A program made the position numbers and the translations under genes. 23,733 nt of DNA. It comes from a virus. Location of the stretch: IMG/VR virus record IMGVR_UViG_3300018080_000593, positions 1 through 23,733 of that record; one strand, written 5' to 3'. Shown in pieces: positions 6,096 to 23,733 of this stretch. The notes beneath the pieces were generated by a model, which was not told the origin of the DNA, made no database searches, and worked only from the letters and a program-made list of their open reading frames with translations. The number at the start of each line of letters is the position of its first letter. Position 1 is the stretch's first letter.

Positions 6096-9000
6096 ATGGA
6101 AGAAATTACTTTTAAATCGCAGAAGGATTTTATTGAAAAGTTTCAAATTCTATTAGCAGAGATTGAAAAAGATCCCATAGAAAACTTTGTAAAGCATCCC
6201 TGGTTTTGTAACTTCGAACCAACTCCAGCACAAATGGTGGCGCTAAAGCTGGCCTTCAACAAGGAGTTAGACACAATAATTCCGCATGATATTTGGAGAG
6301 AGACCGTCAATGAAGCTGAGGAGTTTGACTTAGAACTAGTAAAAATGACTGAAGTAGATCTTTTTGAGTTTATGACGGGAAAAGATTATTCGCTCTATAA
6401 AGATTCTGACGATGTTTTCAATATGATCGATTTTATAATAGGAAGACGTGGCGGCAAATGCTTAAAATCATTGGAGAAAATCCATTTAGAGGATGGATCT
6501 TTCGTAAAAGTGGGAGACTTTGTCAATAAAGAGATTAGACTAAAAGCCTGGGATGAAGCTAGTAAAGATTATGTTAGCGCGAAGGCAAATGTAATTGATA
6601 ATGGCGTAAAAGATATTTATAAGATAAGGACAAAATACGGATATGAGTTTGAGCGCACCGGAAACCACCCATTCCTAACCGCGGAAGGATGGGCATGTGT
6701 AGATAATGAAAATGAACCGGATTATAAAAAGCTTAAAGAAAAAATGAGGATAGGAGTGCCTACTAACAATCCATATGAGGGAAGTACTCCACAAGATATA
6801 AAGTTAGTAAAATTATTGGCTTATTTTTTGGCAGATGGCTACTTAGTAAGTGAGGGATCGCATTACACCCTCTGTAACACTGAGCAAAAAACAGAAATAT
6901 TATCATTAATAGAGGGTAATTATAAAATAAGACCACATAATGTTAGTAAGATTGCGGAGGATATGAGAGTAAGCACTCATTCTAATATTCAAAAACTCTT
7001 AGATCAGCTAAATTTATTAGGTACGCATTCAGATACTAAATTTATACCTAATTGGGTTTATCGTTTGCCCAATAATCAACTAAGTATTTTCCTAAATCGC
7101 CTAATATCTACCGATGGATGGGCTTGTGTTTCTAAAGAGGGTAAAAAGTTAAGACCACAAATAGGTTTTTCTTCGGCTTCCAAGGATATGTCTTTGTCGG
7201 TAAAGCGTTTACTAGCACGTTTTGGCATTATTTCTAACATCCACAAAGCCAAATCGGGATATAAGATTGGGGGTGTTAAAAAGGAATGTAAAGATCGGTA
7301 TTCTGTAATTATTCAAAATGGTTCTGAAATATCTAAATTTTTAGATAGAATTGGCCTGTTTGGAAAAGATGATGAAATAGCGGCAATAAATGCCGCATTA
7401 AACGACAAAAACTCATTTAATACACAAATAGATTCAATGCCTTTGGATTTTTGCATTCGATTTTCTAAAAAACTAAAGAAATTACTATCTTATACAGTCC
7501 AAGAACGTGATTATTTTGGTAGAATTAGACCGGATAGATGCGCTCGCAAAGATCGACTAATTAAATATGCAGAAATGTTTCCGGAACACTTTAGAGAAGA
7601 GTTGAGTTTGCTAAAAAGTGATTTATATTGGGACGAAATCGTCTCTATTGAATATAGCGGAAAACACCATACTGTAGGAATAGAGGTTCCAAAATACCAC
7701 ACTTATATTAACGATGTCGTGGAGCATAACACTACTTTATCGGCCATTTTAGCCATTTATCGGTCTATTGTAACTAATTGGAAACCCTTTTTAAGAAAAA
7801 CCCCCTTCGCTACTGTATTAATTCTTAGTCATAGTAGGGAGTTTAGTGACGAAGTATTGGAAATTATTAGAACTTTTATAGAAGAGTCTCCTATATTGCA
7901 AAATGTTATTAATAAGAAAAAGAAGAATACCGCTAGTACAATGAATCTTAGCGTGCCGCACACACTCCCCAATGGCCGCGTCAATGATTCCCGGGTTCAA
8001 ATTAAAGTCGGTGCCGCCAGCTCTAAGACCACTCGGGGAACCGCTGCATGTACCGTTTTAACGGATGAAATAGCGTTCTGGAACCTAGACGAAAACTTAA
8101 AAGAGTCCGATGCCAAAATTTTAAAAGCTGTTAGGCCAGCCATGAAACAGTTTGGAGAAAAGGGCTTATTAATCAAGCTATCCTCTCCAGGGATTAAGCA
8201 GGGTATTTTGTATGAGGAGTATTTACGTTGGCGAGAAGGCACTTTGCCCGAAAACTACCTAGTATTAAAAGCCCCTTCGTGGGTGTGGAATAATATTATC
8301 AATAAACGCGAATACTTTATTGAGTGGAAACTAGATCAAGAAGGTTTTGATACAGAATATCGTGCAAATTTCGTAGATGCCATATCAAATTTTATTATAC
8401 CCGAATTTGTAGACATGGCAATTCTTCAGAGCACTTTATTCAATCCCCCAGAAGATAAAAAAGCAAACGTAAAGTATTATGCATCCGTGGATGCAGCTTT
8501 CAAAGGTGATACATTCACTTTCTCGGTCATGGGCCATTTTGAGAACAGGATCAAGCAATATATAATGAAAGGGTGGCGCGGAACTAAGAAAGAGCCGGTA
8601 AAAGCCATAGAATTAGCTAAATATATCAGTGCTATATGCAAAGAATATGATGTTCAAGAAGTTGAAGCCGATCAATATGCTTTTCAACCACTTAAAGAGA
8701 TCTTCGAGCAATTTGGGATTACCCTAAAAGAGCGTGTATATTCACAAACTTACAAGAAACAAATATATTTTAACATAAAACGCTTAATTCATTCCCAGCA
8801 AATAGACCTCTTGGACCATCCCAAAGCTCCCAAAGAATTAAAGGAGTTAGTGGTTGAACAAACTGCCGGAGGACATGTTAAAATAGGGCATCCCATTGGC
8901 GGATCAGATGATTATGCAGATGCCATTGCAATGTCCGCATTTGCAGCCATAGAGGGCGCAGGATCTTTAGGATTTTCTTTTAATGACACTAATATTATTA

Positions 9001-9206
9001 AAAATTATGATCTAAATACCGACATTAATGGGAATTATTTTAAAGCACCACCTCCCGAAGCTCTTCAAGAAGAGTTTGGACACCTGGTTTTAGATAATGC
9101 CGATTTATTTATGAAACATCCAGAAACTGGAAAAATAGTGCCAATACAAGAGGTTATAGAGGAAGAATTAGACGAAGAGCTCAATGAACCGGAGTTTTTA
9201 ATATGA
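6096..9206 (+). CDS. terL: Terminase large subunit containing a LAGLIDADG intein
   Basis: ATP-driven DNA packaging motor and headful/cohesive-end nuclease. The precursor is 1036 aa; removing the intein (122-545) leaves 612 aa, within the usual range. Seen: Walker A GRRGGK at 116-121 completed by TT after splicing; Walker B VLTDEIAFW with Asp657-Glu658; a coupling-type SSPG shortly after; and the RNase H-like nuclease with Asp799 (SVDAAFKGD), Asp859 (VEADQYAF) and Asp942 (DDYADAIAM). Start choice: ATG at 6096, one base after the previous stop; there is no good SD, so reinitiation or a near-leaderless transcript (TATAAA at 6082-6087) are possible. The stop overlaps the HNH gene by 4 nt. A small terminase subunit is not recognisable in the window. 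Confidence 0.95.
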   Translation: MEEITFKSQKDFIEKFQILLAEIEKDPIENFVKHPWFCNFEPTPAQMVALKLAFNKELDTIIPHDIWRETVNEAEEFDLELVKMTEVDLFEFMTGKDYSLYKDSDDVFNMIDFIIGRRGGKCLKSLEKIHLEDGSFVKVGDFVNKEIRLKAWDEASKDYVSAKANVIDNGVKDIYKIRTKYGYEFERTGNHPFLTAEGWACVDNENEPDYKKLKEKMRIGVPTNNPYEGSTPQDIKLVKLLAYFLADGYLVSEGSHYTLCNTEQKTEILSLIEGNYKIRPHNVSKIAEDMRVSTHSNIQKLLDQLNLLGTHSDTKFIPNWVYRLPNNQLSIFLNRLISTDGWACVSKEGKKLRPQIGFSSASKDMSLSVKRLLARFGIISNIHKAKSGYKIGGVKKECKDRYSVIIQNGSEISKFLDRIGLFGKDDEIAAINAALNDKNSFNTQIDSMPLDFCIRFSKKLKKLLSYTVQERDYFGRIRPDRCARKDRLIKYAEMFPEHFREELSLLKSDLYWDEIVSIEYSGKHHTVGIEVPKYHTYINDVVEHNTTLSAILAIYRSIVTNWKPFLRKTPFATVLILSHSREFSDEVLEIIRTFIEESPILQNVINKKKKNTASTMNLSVPHTLPNGRVNDSRVQIKVGAASSKTTRGTAACTVLTDEIAFWNLDENLKESDAKILKAVRPAMKQFGEKGLLIKLSSPGIKQGILYEEYLRWREGTLPENYLVLKAPSWVWNNIINKREYFIEWKLDQEGFDTEYRANFVDAISNFIIPEFVDMAILQSTLFNPPEDKKANVKYYASVDAAFKGDTFTFSVMGHFENRIKQYIMKGWRGTKKEPVKAIELAKYISAICKEYDVQEVEADQYAFQPLKEIFEQFGITLKERVYSQTYKKQIYFNIKRLIHSQQIDLLDHPKAPKELKELVVEQTAGGHVKIGHPIGGSDDYADAIAMSAFAAIEGAGSLGFSFNDTNIIKNYDLNTDINGNYFKAPPPEALQEEFGHLVLDNADLFMKHPETGKIVPIQEVIEEELDEELNEPEFLI
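6459..7730 (+). mobile_element. Intein with LAGLIDADG homing endonuclease, in terminase Walker A
   Basis: A 424-residue in-frame insertion (precursor residues 122-545). It begins with Cys (CLKSLEKIHLEDG) and ends YHTYINDVVEHN with Thr as the +1 residue. Block B is RTGNHPFLT. Two homing endonuclease helices are seen, LLAYFLADGYL and FLNRLISTDGWA. It splits GRRGGK from TT inside the P-loop, a conserved site favoured by terminase inteins, so packaging ATPase activity should depend on splicing. Confidence 0.93.
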
Positions 9207-9958
9207 AAACGTGCAGTAAATGTGGTATTGAAAAAGAAGTTTCCGAGTTTTATAACAAAGGTCGTCAATGCAAACTTTGTAAAAATGAAATTAATAAAGC
9301 ATATGCTGCGAAAAACGCCGACTTAATCAGGCGGAAAAAGCGAGAATACGCTAAGAAAAACAAAGAAAGAATAAAGGATTACAAAGCGCGTTATTATCAA
9401 GAGAATAGAGATTCCGAGGTAAAAAAACGTAAGCTTTATTATCAAGAAAATAAAGACATTATAATAGAAAATGTCAAGGAGTATTATAGGGAGCATAAAG
9501 AAAAAGTCGCTGTTTATAATAAAAAGTATCAAGAGGCTAACAGGGCAGTCATTAAGGAGCAAAGAAAACTTTATAGAAATTCCAATAAGGACATTTTATC
9601 TTATAAGTTTATAGAAAAGTATAAAAATGACGTAATAACTAAATTAAAAGTGCAATTAAGAAATCGTTTAAATAAAGCACTTAAGAACAATTATAAGACT
9701 GGTTCCGCCGTTCGAGACCTTGGATGTTCTATCGAGGAAATTAAAGCTTATTTGGAATCCAAATTCCAGCCCGGAATGTCTTGGGAAAACTGGACGACTT
9801 CGGGCTGGCATATAGATCACATAGTTCCGCTGGCTAGTTTCGATTTAACAAACCGGGAAGAACTGCTAAAAGCTTGTCATTATACCAATTTACAACCCTT
9901 GTGGGCCGCGGACAACCTACGCAAAGGATCTAAGGTTGACGTGGCTGAAAACAAATGA
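9203..9958 (+). CDS. Free-standing HNH endonuclease 1
   Basis: Predicted homing-type nuclease, 251 aa. Seen: an N-terminal zinc ribbon, CSKC at residues 4-7 and CKLC at 23-26; a long Lys/Arg/Tyr-rich helical region (about 40-140) with repeated YYQEN-like units that probably lies along DNA; and a C-terminal HNH nuclease core with GWHIDHIVPL at 201-210, then ACHYTNLQPLWAADN. The start ATG overlaps the terminase stop by 4 nt, so the gene rides on terminase translation. Residues 161-244 match HNH endonuclease 2 at 73 of 84 positions while the middle parts differ. Phage HNH genes of this kind typically cut homologous loci in competing phages; that use here is inference. Confidence 0.88.
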   Translation: MKTCSKCGIEKEVSEFYNKGRQCKLCKNEINKAYAAKNADLIRRKKREYAKKNKERIKDYKARYYQENRDSEVKKRKLYYQENKDIIIENVKEYYREHKEKVAVYNKKYQEANRAVIKEQRKLYRNSNKDILSYKFIEKYKNDVITKLKVQLRNRLNKALKNNYKTGSAVRDLGCSIEEIKAYLESKFQPGMSWENWTTSGWHIDHIVPLASFDLTNREELLKACHYTNLQPLWAADNLRKGSKVDVAENK

Positions 9959-12385: not shown

Positions 12386-13078
12386 ATGAGGACTTGCACT
12401 AAATGTGGAATCGAAGAAGATAAAACAGAATTTTGTAAGGATCGCAGTGTTTGTAAAGCGTGTTATTTAACCCAACACGCTGAATATCGTAAAAAAAATA
12501 GAAGTTTATTAAAAGAAAAAAGTCGAGAATATAGAAAACATAATAGTGAATATTTAAAGAATTATCATAAAAAGTATAATAATGAAAATGAAAAGAAGAG
12601 AAGTGACTACCATAAACAGTATCGTAGTAAGAATAAAGATAAAATAGCTAATAGAGATAAACTTTATTATGAAAAACATAAATATGACGATTCTTTTAAA
12701 GAAAGAAGATTTACTTATTACGAAAAAAAACTTAAAAATAATATTTTTTTTAAACTAAGTAAGTCACTTCGCGTAAGACTTCATCACGCAATCAAAAACA
12801 ATTATAAGACCGGTTCCGCTGTTCGAGACCTTGGATGTTCCATCGAAGAGCTTAAAACCTATTTAGAATCCAAATTTCAACCAGGAATGTCTTGGGATAA
12901 TTGGAGTACTCGTGGCTGGCATATCGACCATATAATCCCGTTAAGCTCATTCGACTTAACGAACCGTGAAGAACTATTAAAGGCTTGTCATTACACCAAT
13001 TTACAACCGTTATGGGCCGTGGATAATCTAAAGAAAAGTAATAAAATGGAGCGTAAGAATGCCGAAGATCAAGATTGA
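12386..13078 (+). CDS. Free-standing HNH endonuclease 2
   Basis: 230 aa paralogue of HNH endonuclease 1. Seen: zinc ribbon CTKC at residues 4-7 and CKAC at 23-26 with the same spacing; a very basic Tyr/Lys-rich helical middle (about 34-125) unlike that of its paralogue; and the HNH core GWHIDHIIPL at 177-186 followed by ACHYTNLQPLWAVDN. Residues 137-220 match the paralogue at 73 of 84 positions. The gene sits between portal and minor head genes, a region where head genes are usually contiguous, which suggests insertion. It lacks an SD and probably is read from a leaderless transcript. Its 3' end overlaps the next gene by 20 nt. Confidence 0.87.
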   Translation: MRTCTKCGIEEDKTEFCKDRSVCKACYLTQHAEYRKKNRSLLKEKSREYRKHNSEYLKNYHKKYNNENEKKRSDYHKQYRSKNKDKIANRDKLYYEKHKYDDSFKERRFTYYEKKLKNNIFFKLSKSLRVRLHHAIKNNYKTGSAVRDLGCSIEELKTYLESKFQPGMSWDNWSTRGWHIDHIIPLSSFDLTNREELLKACHYTNLQPLWAVDNLKKSNKMERKNAEDQD

Positions 13079-20947: not shown

Positions 20948-22360
20948 ATGACTAACTCAATTCTCAATCAAGTGGCCGATGAAGGCACTATGCAGGGATT
21001 CGGCGCTCATTCTGCTAAGGAAGTAGAAGAATTACAAAAAGCCCTTTCCATTTCTCAAAATTATGGTTCTACCGCTCCTGGCGATTTAGCTGGCGGATCT
21101 GCTTTATCAGTAGAAGACTTAGATCGTACTTTAAAACTCGTTACTCACGGACTTGAGCATCTTAGAATGTGGAAAGACGTAATTAAAGAAAAAGTAAACC
21201 AAACTGTTCATCAATACAATGTACAAAATAGTTATGGTCAAGAAGTTTCTCCATTCTTCGCAATGGGCGGAACTCCTAATAATACTGACGCTAACTATGA
21301 AAGAGATTTCGTACAAATTAAGTATTTAGGAACCCAAGGTAGTGTTCAACACAATTTGACTTTGATCCAAGCCGCACACGGTCCCGTTGTAGCTCGCGAA
21401 GTTAAAAACAAAACTATCGAACTATTAGCTCGAAATGAAAGATCTATGTTTGACGCCGATTCTTCTATCAACTCACTTGAGTATGATGGTATTTTCAAGC
21501 AAATCGAATCAAAAGAACAAGAATCTACATATAAATCAACTGCATTTGCTGGTTATGATAGCGAAGGCGTTGATAATAGCGTAATTTATGATGTCCGAGC
21601 ATCTTTAGATGATGACATTTGTGAAGAAGCCGCTCTCCGAAACGTAAATAACTTCGGTATGGCCGGTGACATGTACTTAGGTACTGATATTCATAGTAAT
21701 TTCAGCAAAGCATTTTATGCTAAGCAACGAAATTTACCCGGGGAAACTTTGATCGCTGGTCAAAAAGTTAAGGAATTTAATGGTACTTCCGATTTTAGAT
21801 TCAAGCCTAGCTTGTTTAATCGTCCCAGAAAAGCTCCTTTAGCCGTTAGTATTAGTGGTTCTGCCGCTCCTACCATGGCCAACCAAGCCGCCGCCGCCAA
21901 CGCTGCTAGTCAGTTTAAAGCCGCCGACGCTGGAACATATAGCTATGTAATTTCCGCTGTTTATGATGATGGAGAAACCGTTGCTTCTTCCGCATTCGCA
22001 CAAGCCGTTGCCGCCGGTGAGAAAGTAAGTGTAGAAATCACTTATACCGGAAGCCCTCTCTATTTTAACGTATTCAGAGCCCCCGTTGGAACCTCTGCCG
22101 GACACGAATTCATCAAAAGAATTAAGCCCGCAGCTTCCGCTTCCGCTCACGACATCGATTTCAATGCTGATCTTCCCGGATCCGCAAGAGCTTATTTGAT
22201 GATGCATGATCAAGACGTGTATGTCTGGAAACAACTCGGATCACTCATCAAGTATGACCTGGCTGTTACTGATACCAGTTACAAATGGCTTCAGCTTTTA
22301 TATGGAAGTCCCCTAATCGTAGCTCCTCGTAAAAATATTATTATCCGTAACTTAATTTAA
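20948..22360 (+). CDS. Major capsid protein with an Ig-like insertion
   Basis: Predicted main shell protein of HK97-type fold, 470 aa, following protease and scaffold. Seen: an N-terminal region (about 1-50), a segment DLDRTLKLVTHGLEHLRMWK, beta-rich core with SYGQEVSPFFAMGG and a long helical/loop part to about 290. Residues about 323-408 look like an Ig/Fn3-type beta domain: DAGTYSYVISAVYDDGETVAS, VSVEITYTGSPLYFNVFRAP, then a short C-terminal shell segment (WKQLGSLIKYDLAVTDTSYK). The inserted part has noticeably more GC-rich, GCC-type codons than its surroundings. Strong AAGGAG SD. Identity is from context and fold-like pattern, not from a database match. Confidence 0.82.
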   Translation: MTNSILNQVADEGTMQGFGAHSAKEVEELQKALSISQNYGSTAPGDLAGGSALSVEDLDRTLKLVTHGLEHLRMWKDVIKEKVNQTVHQYNVQNSYGQEVSPFFAMGGTPNNTDANYERDFVQIKYLGTQGSVQHNLTLIQAAHGPVVAREVKNKTIELLARNERSMFDADSSINSLEYDGIFKQIESKEQESTYKSTAFAGYDSEGVDNSVIYDVRASLDDDICEEAALRNVNNFGMAGDMYLGTDIHSNFSKAFYAKQRNLPGETLIAGQKVKEFNGTSDFRFKPSLFNRPRKAPLAVSISGSAAPTMANQAAAANAASQFKAADAGTYSYVISAVYDDGETVASSAFAQAVAAGEKVSVEITYTGSPLYFNVFRAPVGTSAGHEFIKRIKPAASASAHDIDFNADLPGSARAYLMMHDQDVYVWKQLGSLIKYDLAVTDTSYKWLQLLYGSPLIVAPRKNIIIRNLI

Positions 22361-22390
22361 TTATTAGGTTTTTAGGTAATTTATTTAAAA

Positions 22391-22416
22391 GGGCGTCTTT
22401 AAGACGCCCTTTTTTT
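22391..22416 (+). terminator. Strong rho-independent terminator after the capsid gene
   Basis: GGGCGTC (22391-22397), 5-nt loop TTTAA, GACGCCC (22403-22409), then seven T. The stem is perfect and GC-rich. Upstream AAAA can pair with the T-run, so it may also work on the other strand. It closes the capsid operon. Confidence 0.93.
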
Positions 22417-22417
22417 A

Positions 22418-22446
22418 TTGATTTTTATAGAAATTAATGATATAAT
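22418..22446 (+). promoter_or_regulatory. Promoter for the HNH-methyltransferase gene
   Basis: TTGATT at 22418-22423, 17-bp spacer, TATAAT at 22441-22446 with the extended TGA. It starts two bases after the terminator. The transcript would begin about 4 nt before the ATG at 22457, with no SD, so initiation would be nearly leaderless. Confidence 0.68.
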
Positions 22447-22456
22447 AATTGTAACC

Positions 22457-23733
22457 ATGGTGTTACTAAAAATAGAAGATCAAGAATTCCATACTTATCA
22501 AAGTATTTTGGATTTTGCAGGTAGTCAAAGAAAAGCGGCTGCTCTGGTAAAGCTAACCCGATCTCAATTCATGTATAAATTAAGAGAGGAACGCGGCCAT
22601 TGTAGATATCCCGGATGCACGAGCACTCCCTTAGAAGGGAAAACTCGGTGCCAAGAACATCGCGTGCCTAAGCAGGATATGGAGCGTAAAAAGCTGTCCC
22701 ATAAAAAATGGCTACAAAGCTTGGTAGGTACAGATCGGGAACGAACTAGGGAGTTTTTAAACAAACAGGGGAGAGACTACTACTATGCCAACTATGAAAA
22801 ACAAAGAAAATACCGTAATGAACGGGCTAGAAGGCCTGAAAATAAAATTAAAAATCGATTAAAAACACAAAAATATAGAAAATTACATAAAAATGATCCA
22901 AACCTAACTAAAGAAGATGTCGCTTCTATTTTTAAGAAATTCAATAACAAGTGTTTTAAATGTGGTAGGGTGGATCGACTAGAATTAGACCATCACCTCC
23001 CCTTATCCAGGGGAGGTTTATTGACGCCCGATAATACCGTAATACTTTGCAAGTCCTGTAATTCTGGTAAGTGCGACAAACTTCCATCGGAGTATTATAA
23101 TAATATCGAAACCTTACAACTAAACGCCTTACTGGGAATTTCTGAGTTAAGAAGGGAATATTCCGAAAAGTCTCTAAAAAGAGAGTTTAATACAATAAAA
23201 ACCACCGAACCCTCTTATCAAAAGCTTCCACAAACTAATAGATTAACCACTCATTTTAACCCACACTTTTATGCGAAAGAGAACGAATTGTGGAAAGATC
23301 TCTCAGTACAAGAAAAGTTAATTGCAAACAGAGTCCGGTATTTATTCAAGGAAGCAAATGACTTAACAGAAAGCGAGCTGTTACGAGGCTTTAAGATCTC
23401 AGGAGCACATATAGGATTTTCGCACCATTCCCCTTTTTGGATTAAGCGATTTATAGAGGATTACGGTATTAAATCCATTTATGATCCTTGTGGGGGGTGG
23501 GGACACCGTTTAATAGGAAGTCATGCCATAAAGTATATCTATAATGATATAGGCAAGCGGTCCACCCGCGGCGCTCAAAAAATAGCTGATTTTTTGGGAC
23601 TGGAAGACAAAACTTTCTATAATCGAGATTGTACTAAATTTACCCCGGTTGAGGATTACGAAGCCGTATTTACATGCCCTCCTTATTTTGACGTGGAATT
23701 ATATGATAATTATGAGCGGTTTTGTAAGAATGG
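22457..23733 (+). CDS. HNH nuclease-DNA methyltransferase fusion, partial
   Basis: An uninterrupted frame of 425 complete codons that runs off the window, so the 3' end is missing. Residues 1-70 hold a short helical part and a putative zinc knuckle, Cys49, Cys54, Cys65 and His68. Residues 166-205 form a complete HNH core: CFKC, LELDHHLPLSRGG with Asp178-His179, Asn193, LCKSCN with Cys198 and Cys201, and Lys205. From about 300 an amino-methyltransferase follows: YDPCGGWGHR (motif I, Asp343) and TCPPYF (motif IV, 406-411), where the usual first residue of [DNS]PPY is Cys. Motifs fit an N6-adenine or N4-cytosine enzyme. Start ATG is chosen by the promoter; a GTG follows directly. Could be a restriction-modification fusion or a methyltransferase carrying a homing nuclease. 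Confidence 0.85.
   Translation, partial: MVLLKIEDQEFHTYQSILDFAGSQRKAAALVKLTRSQFMYKLREERGHCRYPGCTSTPLEGKTRCQEHRVPKQDMERKKLSHKKWLQSLVGTDRERTREFLNKQGRDYYYANYEKQRKYRNERARRPENKIKNRLKTQKYRKLHKNDPNLTKEDVASIFKKFNNKCFKCGRVDRLELDHHLPLSRGGLLTPDNTVILCKSCNSGKCDKLPSEYYNNIETLQLNALLGISELRREYSEKSLKREFNTIKTTEPSYQKLPQTNRLTTHFNPHFYAKENELWKDLSVQEKLIANRVRYLFKEANDLTESELLRGFKISGAHIGFSHHSPFWIKRFIEDYGIKSIYDPCGGWGHRLIGSHAIKYIYNDIGKRSTRGAQKIADFLGLEDKTFYNRDCTKFTPVEDYEAVFTCPPYFDVELYDNYERFCKN

Follow-up and report, generated by a model that had tools for sequence, protein, structure and literature searches.

A homing gene of the free-standing kind does not disrupt its target and must therefore avoid cutting its own genome, and the known routes to such self-protection are sequence divergence and disruption of the site. 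Type IIG/IIC restriction enzymes carry a nuclease and a methyltransferase in one chain, usually with the target-recognition domain after the methyltransferase. The published relatives of the protein described here are Type IIG enzymes (PMC4081073), ParB-methylase fusions (PMC5512222) and Rnl2 RNA ligases with an N-terminal HNH domain (PMC7824862). No report of a homing endonuclease-methyltransferase fusion was found in the open-access literature, a scope outside which most subscription journals lie.

The stretch analysed here, hereafter the window, is a 23.7-kb phage fragment (IMG/VR virus record IMGVR_UViG_3300018080_000593, positions 1 to 23,733) with an SPO1-like major capsid protein. Its last ORF, directly 3′ of the capsid gene, joins an HNH nuclease to a DNA methyltransferase and has the following parts.

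22457..23733, + strand: HNH-methyltransferase fusion ORF of 425 or more residues, open to the contig end, with its 3′ end cut off
22514..22588, + strand: probable Fis-like helix-turn-helix, residues 20-44 (PF02954, E = 0.004, below cut-off; helices in the structure model)
22601..22660, + strand: zinc knuckle C49/C54/C65/H68, seen in the sequence
22952..23101, + strand: HNH nuclease domain, residues 166-215 (PF01844/PF14279; pLDDT about 90)
23159..23731, + strand: first ~60% of an N4/N6-type DNA methyltransferase domain, residues ~235-425 (HMM, E = 1.1e-17)
23483..23503, + strand: methyltransferase motif I, DPCGGWG, residues 343-349, seen in the sequence
23672..23686, + strand: methyltransferase motif IV, TCPPY, residues 406-410 (same motif in 58 viral contigs)

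The HNH core matched PF01844 at residues 166-205 with 30.6 bits against a cut-off of 21.4 (E = 3.8e-7), and Pfam HNH_5 matched residues 166-215. Residues C166/C169, D178-H179, N193 and C198/C201 were all intact, and the protein accordingly has both the above-cut-off profile match and the zinc and catalytic residues of an HNH endonuclease. The core was 51% identical to a free-standing phage HNH protein with NUMOD3. Pfam alone, PF01555 included, gave no match to the methyltransferase half of the protein as cut off by the contig end. This half matched a Vibrio phage N4-cytosine methylase (tblastn, E = 4e-7) and PADLOC mad2 (2e-5), and a family HMM built from nine relatives, with the window protein left out, gave 66.7 bits (E = 1.1e-17 for 1e5 sequences) and matched none of 1000 shuffled sequences. 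The alignment paired residues 276-418 with profile positions 97-236 of 330, and the contig ends ~95 residues short of the profile end. Motifs I and IV together with the profile match identify an N4/N6 DNA methyltransferase, whose start we placed at about residue 235 rather than at about 290 as in the initial annotation. AlphaFold returned two confident cores, HNH and Rossmann, with pLDDT above 90. In Foldseek searches of the PDB, the parts matched Cas9-type HNH domains and SAM methyltransferases with a probability near 1 each; the whole model gave no match at E<0.001. The HNH core and methyltransferase motifs I and IV that had been proposed for a single chain, and the N-terminal zinc knuckle, were thus all recovered in one open frame.

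A sequencing or assembly error might have joined two separate genes, as the contig ends within the gene and a second copy of the HNH-methyltransferase fusion was not found. However, the frame is unbroken over the joint and contains no ATG, GTG or TTG between codons 190 and 277. FNPH (residue 267), which belongs to the conserved N-terminal part of the methyltransferase, precedes TTG-278. Neither of the other two frames has a start codon ahead of the joint from which translation could run on into the methyltransferase, and the sole ATG (23271) lies inside the methyltransferase domain and lacks a ribosome-binding site. Because there is no usable start in any frame, a single sequencing indel cannot yield two plausible genes. 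The initial annotation had named two signs of a false joint, namely relatives in which the methyltransferase begins at about residue 290 as a separate gene, and a frameshift between the domains. Separate-gene relatives are plentiful, but the window frame has no start in the interval given above, and no single-base indel supplies the methyltransferase with a plausible one. Analogous fusions also occur in many independent contigs. An artefact is extremely improbable on these grounds, and we consider the joining of HNH and methyltransferase in one polypeptide confirmed.

The related HNH ORFs (n = 38) mostly end within ~20 aa of the HNH domain and none carries a methyltransferase, indicating that the methyltransferase was added behind a complete HNH protein and that the fusion did not arise by HNH insertion. 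An earlier suggestion that an HNH domain had invaded a methyltransferase is not borne out, since no methyltransferase sequence precedes the HNH domain and the nuclease sits at the N-terminus of the methyltransferase. A search for further proteins with the same domain order, which had also been proposed, returned none besides the window protein from either half. In IMG/VR only the HNH half gave matches, the methyltransferase half gave no match as a single-sequence query, and the window protein had no match among plasmids. The HNH-centred screen (38 loci) held no second HNH-methyltransferase protein, none of the 58 loci of a TCPPYFD screen had an HNH domain, and an HNH HMM run against the collected relatives matched no fused methyltransferase. 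HNH regex matches in five of these relatives (L185, L204, L184, L010 and L241) were taken as zinc-finger false positives, to which the HMM gave no support. The HNH-methyltransferase is a single case with its 3′ end cut off and no close relative, and its methyltransferase forms a long branch that is unplaced on the methyltransferase tree.

The methyltransferase family itself (METHYLTRANSFERASE) is abundant in phages: a single scan found no fewer than 448 related stretches. Its standalone genes encode ~330-360 aa. Prokaryote genomes held few true relatives, indicating that the family is mainly phage-borne. Of the 54 proteins scanned, 40 matched PF01555. Most members have TSPPY as motif IV; the Cys of CPPY, at first considered odd, is ordinary in phages, as one strict DNA pattern for TCPPYFDxE was encoded by those 58 viral contigs. 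Full-length relatives end ~100 aa past motif IV.

Members of this family are fused behind three unrelated nucleases, LAGLIDADG, Vsr-like and, in the window only, HNH, all joined at the same N-terminal edge. A scan of 54 long ORFs found LAGLIDADG_2 in 31 (best E 2e-44), and these fusions matched I-SceI in both sequence and fold (model pLDDT 90). The second group combines helix-turn-helix and MucR zinc modules with a Vsr/PD-(D/E)XK-like domain; most of its members were assigned by the invariant DG, E.HG.QH pattern alone, without a Pfam nuclease match. L010 matched Vsr above cut-off and also NUMOD3, and L142 and L231 carry a further N-terminal domain without a Pfam match. After removal of near-copies, 28 LAGLIDADG and about 14 Vsr-like fusions were left, with L142, L231 and L010 counted among the 14. 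On the methyltransferase tree, the LAGLIDADG and Vsr-like labels were each forced to change at least three times, and methyltransferases of the two types can be 47% identical, indicating exchange of the nuclease in front of a common methyltransferase module. In L231 (1742-4909), a 1056-aa protein apparently has two methyltransferases, a degenerate one after an N-terminal nuclease-like domain and an intact one after MucR-type zinc fingers. In L226 (2416-4987), near a capsid-like gene, a nuclease-like/zinc ORF overlaps a methyltransferase ORF in a different frame; judged from the sequence, it may be a split form or a frameshifted fusion.

Across 19 proteins, LAGLIDADG D74 (nearly invariant) and D176/D177 were conserved together with the methyltransferase motifs, and the catalytic residues of the Vsr-like fusions were conserved too. 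Omega was 0.05-0.15 in both halves in close pairs of the fused relatives, so both halves are under purifying selection. Given this conservation of catalytic residues, it is very unlikely that the nuclease half serves to bind or nick DNA as an aid to directing methylation, or that the protein is a modification-dependent nuclease. In favour of such readings, the nuclease in the fused types comes with helix-turn-helix and zinc modules, and the same methyltransferase family also includes ParB-methylase fusions. The initial annotation had also offered a single-chain restriction-modification protein and a nuclease that protects its own genome, and both readings gain support from the existence of a wider class in which nucleases and methyltransferases are fused.

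The positions of the fusion genes followed a regular pattern. Among non-redundant loci with upstream sequence, LAGLIDADG fusions lay directly downstream of the major capsid gene in 31 of 31 (phrog_2522; phage G gp27, PDB 6wkk), and 11 of 12 Vsr-like fusions had the tail sheath gene immediately upstream. One 141-kb phage has both, a LAGLIDADG fusion after its capsid gene and a Vsr-like fusion after its sheath gene. Methyltransferases without a recognised nuclease were near a capsid or sheath gene in 3 of 107 cases. Near the capsid gene, L142 and L231 carry the N-terminal domain mentioned above, and L245 and L257 are true solo methyltransferases. In the latter two, the order is capsid, gp28 homologue, then the unfused methyltransferase one gene further on, a layout that is a possible precursor arrangement. 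Huge phages related to one another carry the LAGLIDADG and Vsr-like fusions, and genes found at those loci were themselves the source of the capsid and sheath HMMs, so the position counts describe a regular pattern and not independent events; the shared position may stem from common descent instead of repeated gain.

The window gene likewise comes after a capsid gene, in a phage quite different from these carriers. Three elements lie upstream of it.

20948..22360, + strand: major capsid protein gene, SPO1-like/Herelleviridae-type (phrog_752 major head protein, E = 1.4e-57; tblastn to SPO1-like phages)
22387..22413, + strand: intrinsic terminator between the capsid and fusion genes (12-bp stem, six G-C pairs, T tail)
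22418..22446, + strand: promoter-like site TTGATT-N17-TATAAT with TG (same layout at genes 5208, 5437 and 17265)

No such gene follows the capsid gene in the SPO1-like phages Goe26, EalM-132 and Twort or in Bacteroides phage DAC19, and in Lysinibacillus phage LysYB1 a remnant annotated 'similar to HNH nuclease' occupies that place. At the level of gene order, the fusion is a separate gene beside a conserved gene and absent there in relatives, as expected of a free-standing homing endonuclease. For an insertion between a capsid gene and a gp28 neighbour, no clean base-level empty site was found, since the downstream genes were not common to the compared loci.

The TATAAT at 22441 stands 16 nt ahead of the fusion-gene ATG, and a transcript from this site would probably be leaderless. 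Genes 5208, 5437, 17265 and 22457 all lack a Shine-Dalgarno sequence and have TATAAT/TATAAA, often TGATATAATTAA, 12-16 nt before the ATG (TATA boxes at window 5196, 5425, 17253 and 22441); from their sequence, these are probable leaderless phage promoters. The number of promoter-like sites in the window was not above chance. Of the gene's own promoter after a strong terminator, as first proposed, the terminator with its 12-bp stem stands; promoter-like sites are at chance level, but the TATAAT layout is repeated at three other genes.

Homing elements also occur elsewhere in the window: two of its genes are interrupted, and two more encode free-standing endonucleases. An RNA ligase gene (469-2460) has an in-frame, intein-like LAGLIDADG insert between KIHG and SNIS, and the terminase large subunit gene (6096-9206) has an in-frame, intein-like insert. 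The endonuclease genes at 9203-9958 and 12386-13078 are related to each other (phrog_1035, endonuclease VII/HNH type), one following the terminase gene and the other the portal gene. Three packaging or head genes (terminase, portal and capsid) are each followed by a nuclease gene, with the HNH-methyltransferase behind the capsid gene.

The position beside a conserved essential gene, the patchy presence, the homing-type nucleases and the other homing elements in the window together point to free-standing homing genes. In a finely balanced judgement, we favour the reading that the window gene is a free-standing homing-type endonuclease with its own methyltransferase, which would protect the uninterrupted target beside the gene. 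The N-terminal helix-turn-helix/zinc region and the HNH domain would bind a conserved site in co-infecting phages without the element and cut or nick it; the capsid gene or its flank is the most likely place for this site. Repair from element-bearing genomes would then copy the gene into the cut genome. Because the gene adjoins its target without interrupting it, the C-terminal methyltransferase would mark the target site, block cutting there and spare the bearer's genome. The tracking of nuclease type with the neighbouring gene (LAGLIDADG with capsid, Vsr-like with sheath) speaks for this reading, and the tight linkage makes the target directly testable. We extend it tentatively to a general class, in which nucleases of unrelated folds (LAGLIDADG, Vsr-like and HNH) would each have acquired the same kind of methyltransferase and the uninterrupted capsid or sheath target would be protected by modification in place of insertion or sequence divergence.

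The unfused methyltransferase near the capsid gene in L245 and L257 weighs against self-protecting homing, as the methyltransferase may already have been resident there when a nuclease was joined to it. The single, cut-off HNH case and the kinship of the phages with LAGLIDADG or Vsr-like fusions weigh against it too. In the chief rival, a homing gene would have landed by a resident anti-restriction methyltransferase gene and fused with it, each half keeping its own job with no functional link. Unfused family members are very common in phages, these two among them, and fusions of HNH domains with Rnl2 RNA ligases are known from phages (PMC7824862). We regard such an incidental fusion as doubtful, because unrelated nucleases meet the same methyltransferase family at the same edge, a single phage carries two of these fusions, each at a different structural gene, and nucleases of these types are nearly always methyltransferase-fused in the surveyed loci, which were themselves chosen by methyltransferase.

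A Type IIC/IIG-like enzyme, cutting host or rival-phage DNA at short unmethylated sites genome-wide, would account for the nuclease and methyltransferase in one chain with motif order X-I-IV, as in Type IIG (PMC4081073). No target-recognition domain was seen, however, with relatives ending so soon after motif IV, and the nuclease parts belong to homing types, whose recognition sites are long; this role is less likely for both reasons. Siting by one specific gene also fits homing better, and the PADLOC matches were to nuclease, homing endonuclease and methyltransferase families and to no fused restriction enzyme. We therefore consider it unlikely and retain the self-protecting homing gene as the best explanation.

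Compared with known systems, the window protein shares with Type IIG/IIC enzymes a nuclease placed first and a methyltransferase in the same chain, and differs by its homing-type nuclease, its N4-type (T[SC]PPY) methyltransferase and its place as a phage gene beside a capsid gene; the target-recognition domain of those enzymes was seen neither in the window protein, cut off at the contig end, nor in full-length relatives. The Rnl2 ligases of jumbo phages likewise have an HNH domain fused ahead of a phage enzyme, but their partner is a ligase and offers no protection logic. The LAGLIDADG- and Vsr-like-methyltransferase phage proteins (such as L211, L179 and L236/LR745208) share the methyltransferase family, the domain order and the capsid or tail-sheath siting; they differ in nuclease fold, and the phages that carry them have a phage G-like capsid protein whereas that of the window is SPO1-like. 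Together these genes apparently form a scattered, so far undescribed phage group of cutter-plus-methylator genes beside structural genes. Free-standing (intronless) phage HNH homing endonucleases resemble the window gene in the HNH core, the zinc and helix-turn-helix modules, the conserved structural-gene neighbour and the patchy presence, but the window protein, whose mobility we infer, adds a C-terminal DNA methyltransferase. If our reading is correct, this built-in methyltransferase would be a third route to self-protection, bridging homing endonucleases and restriction-modification systems.
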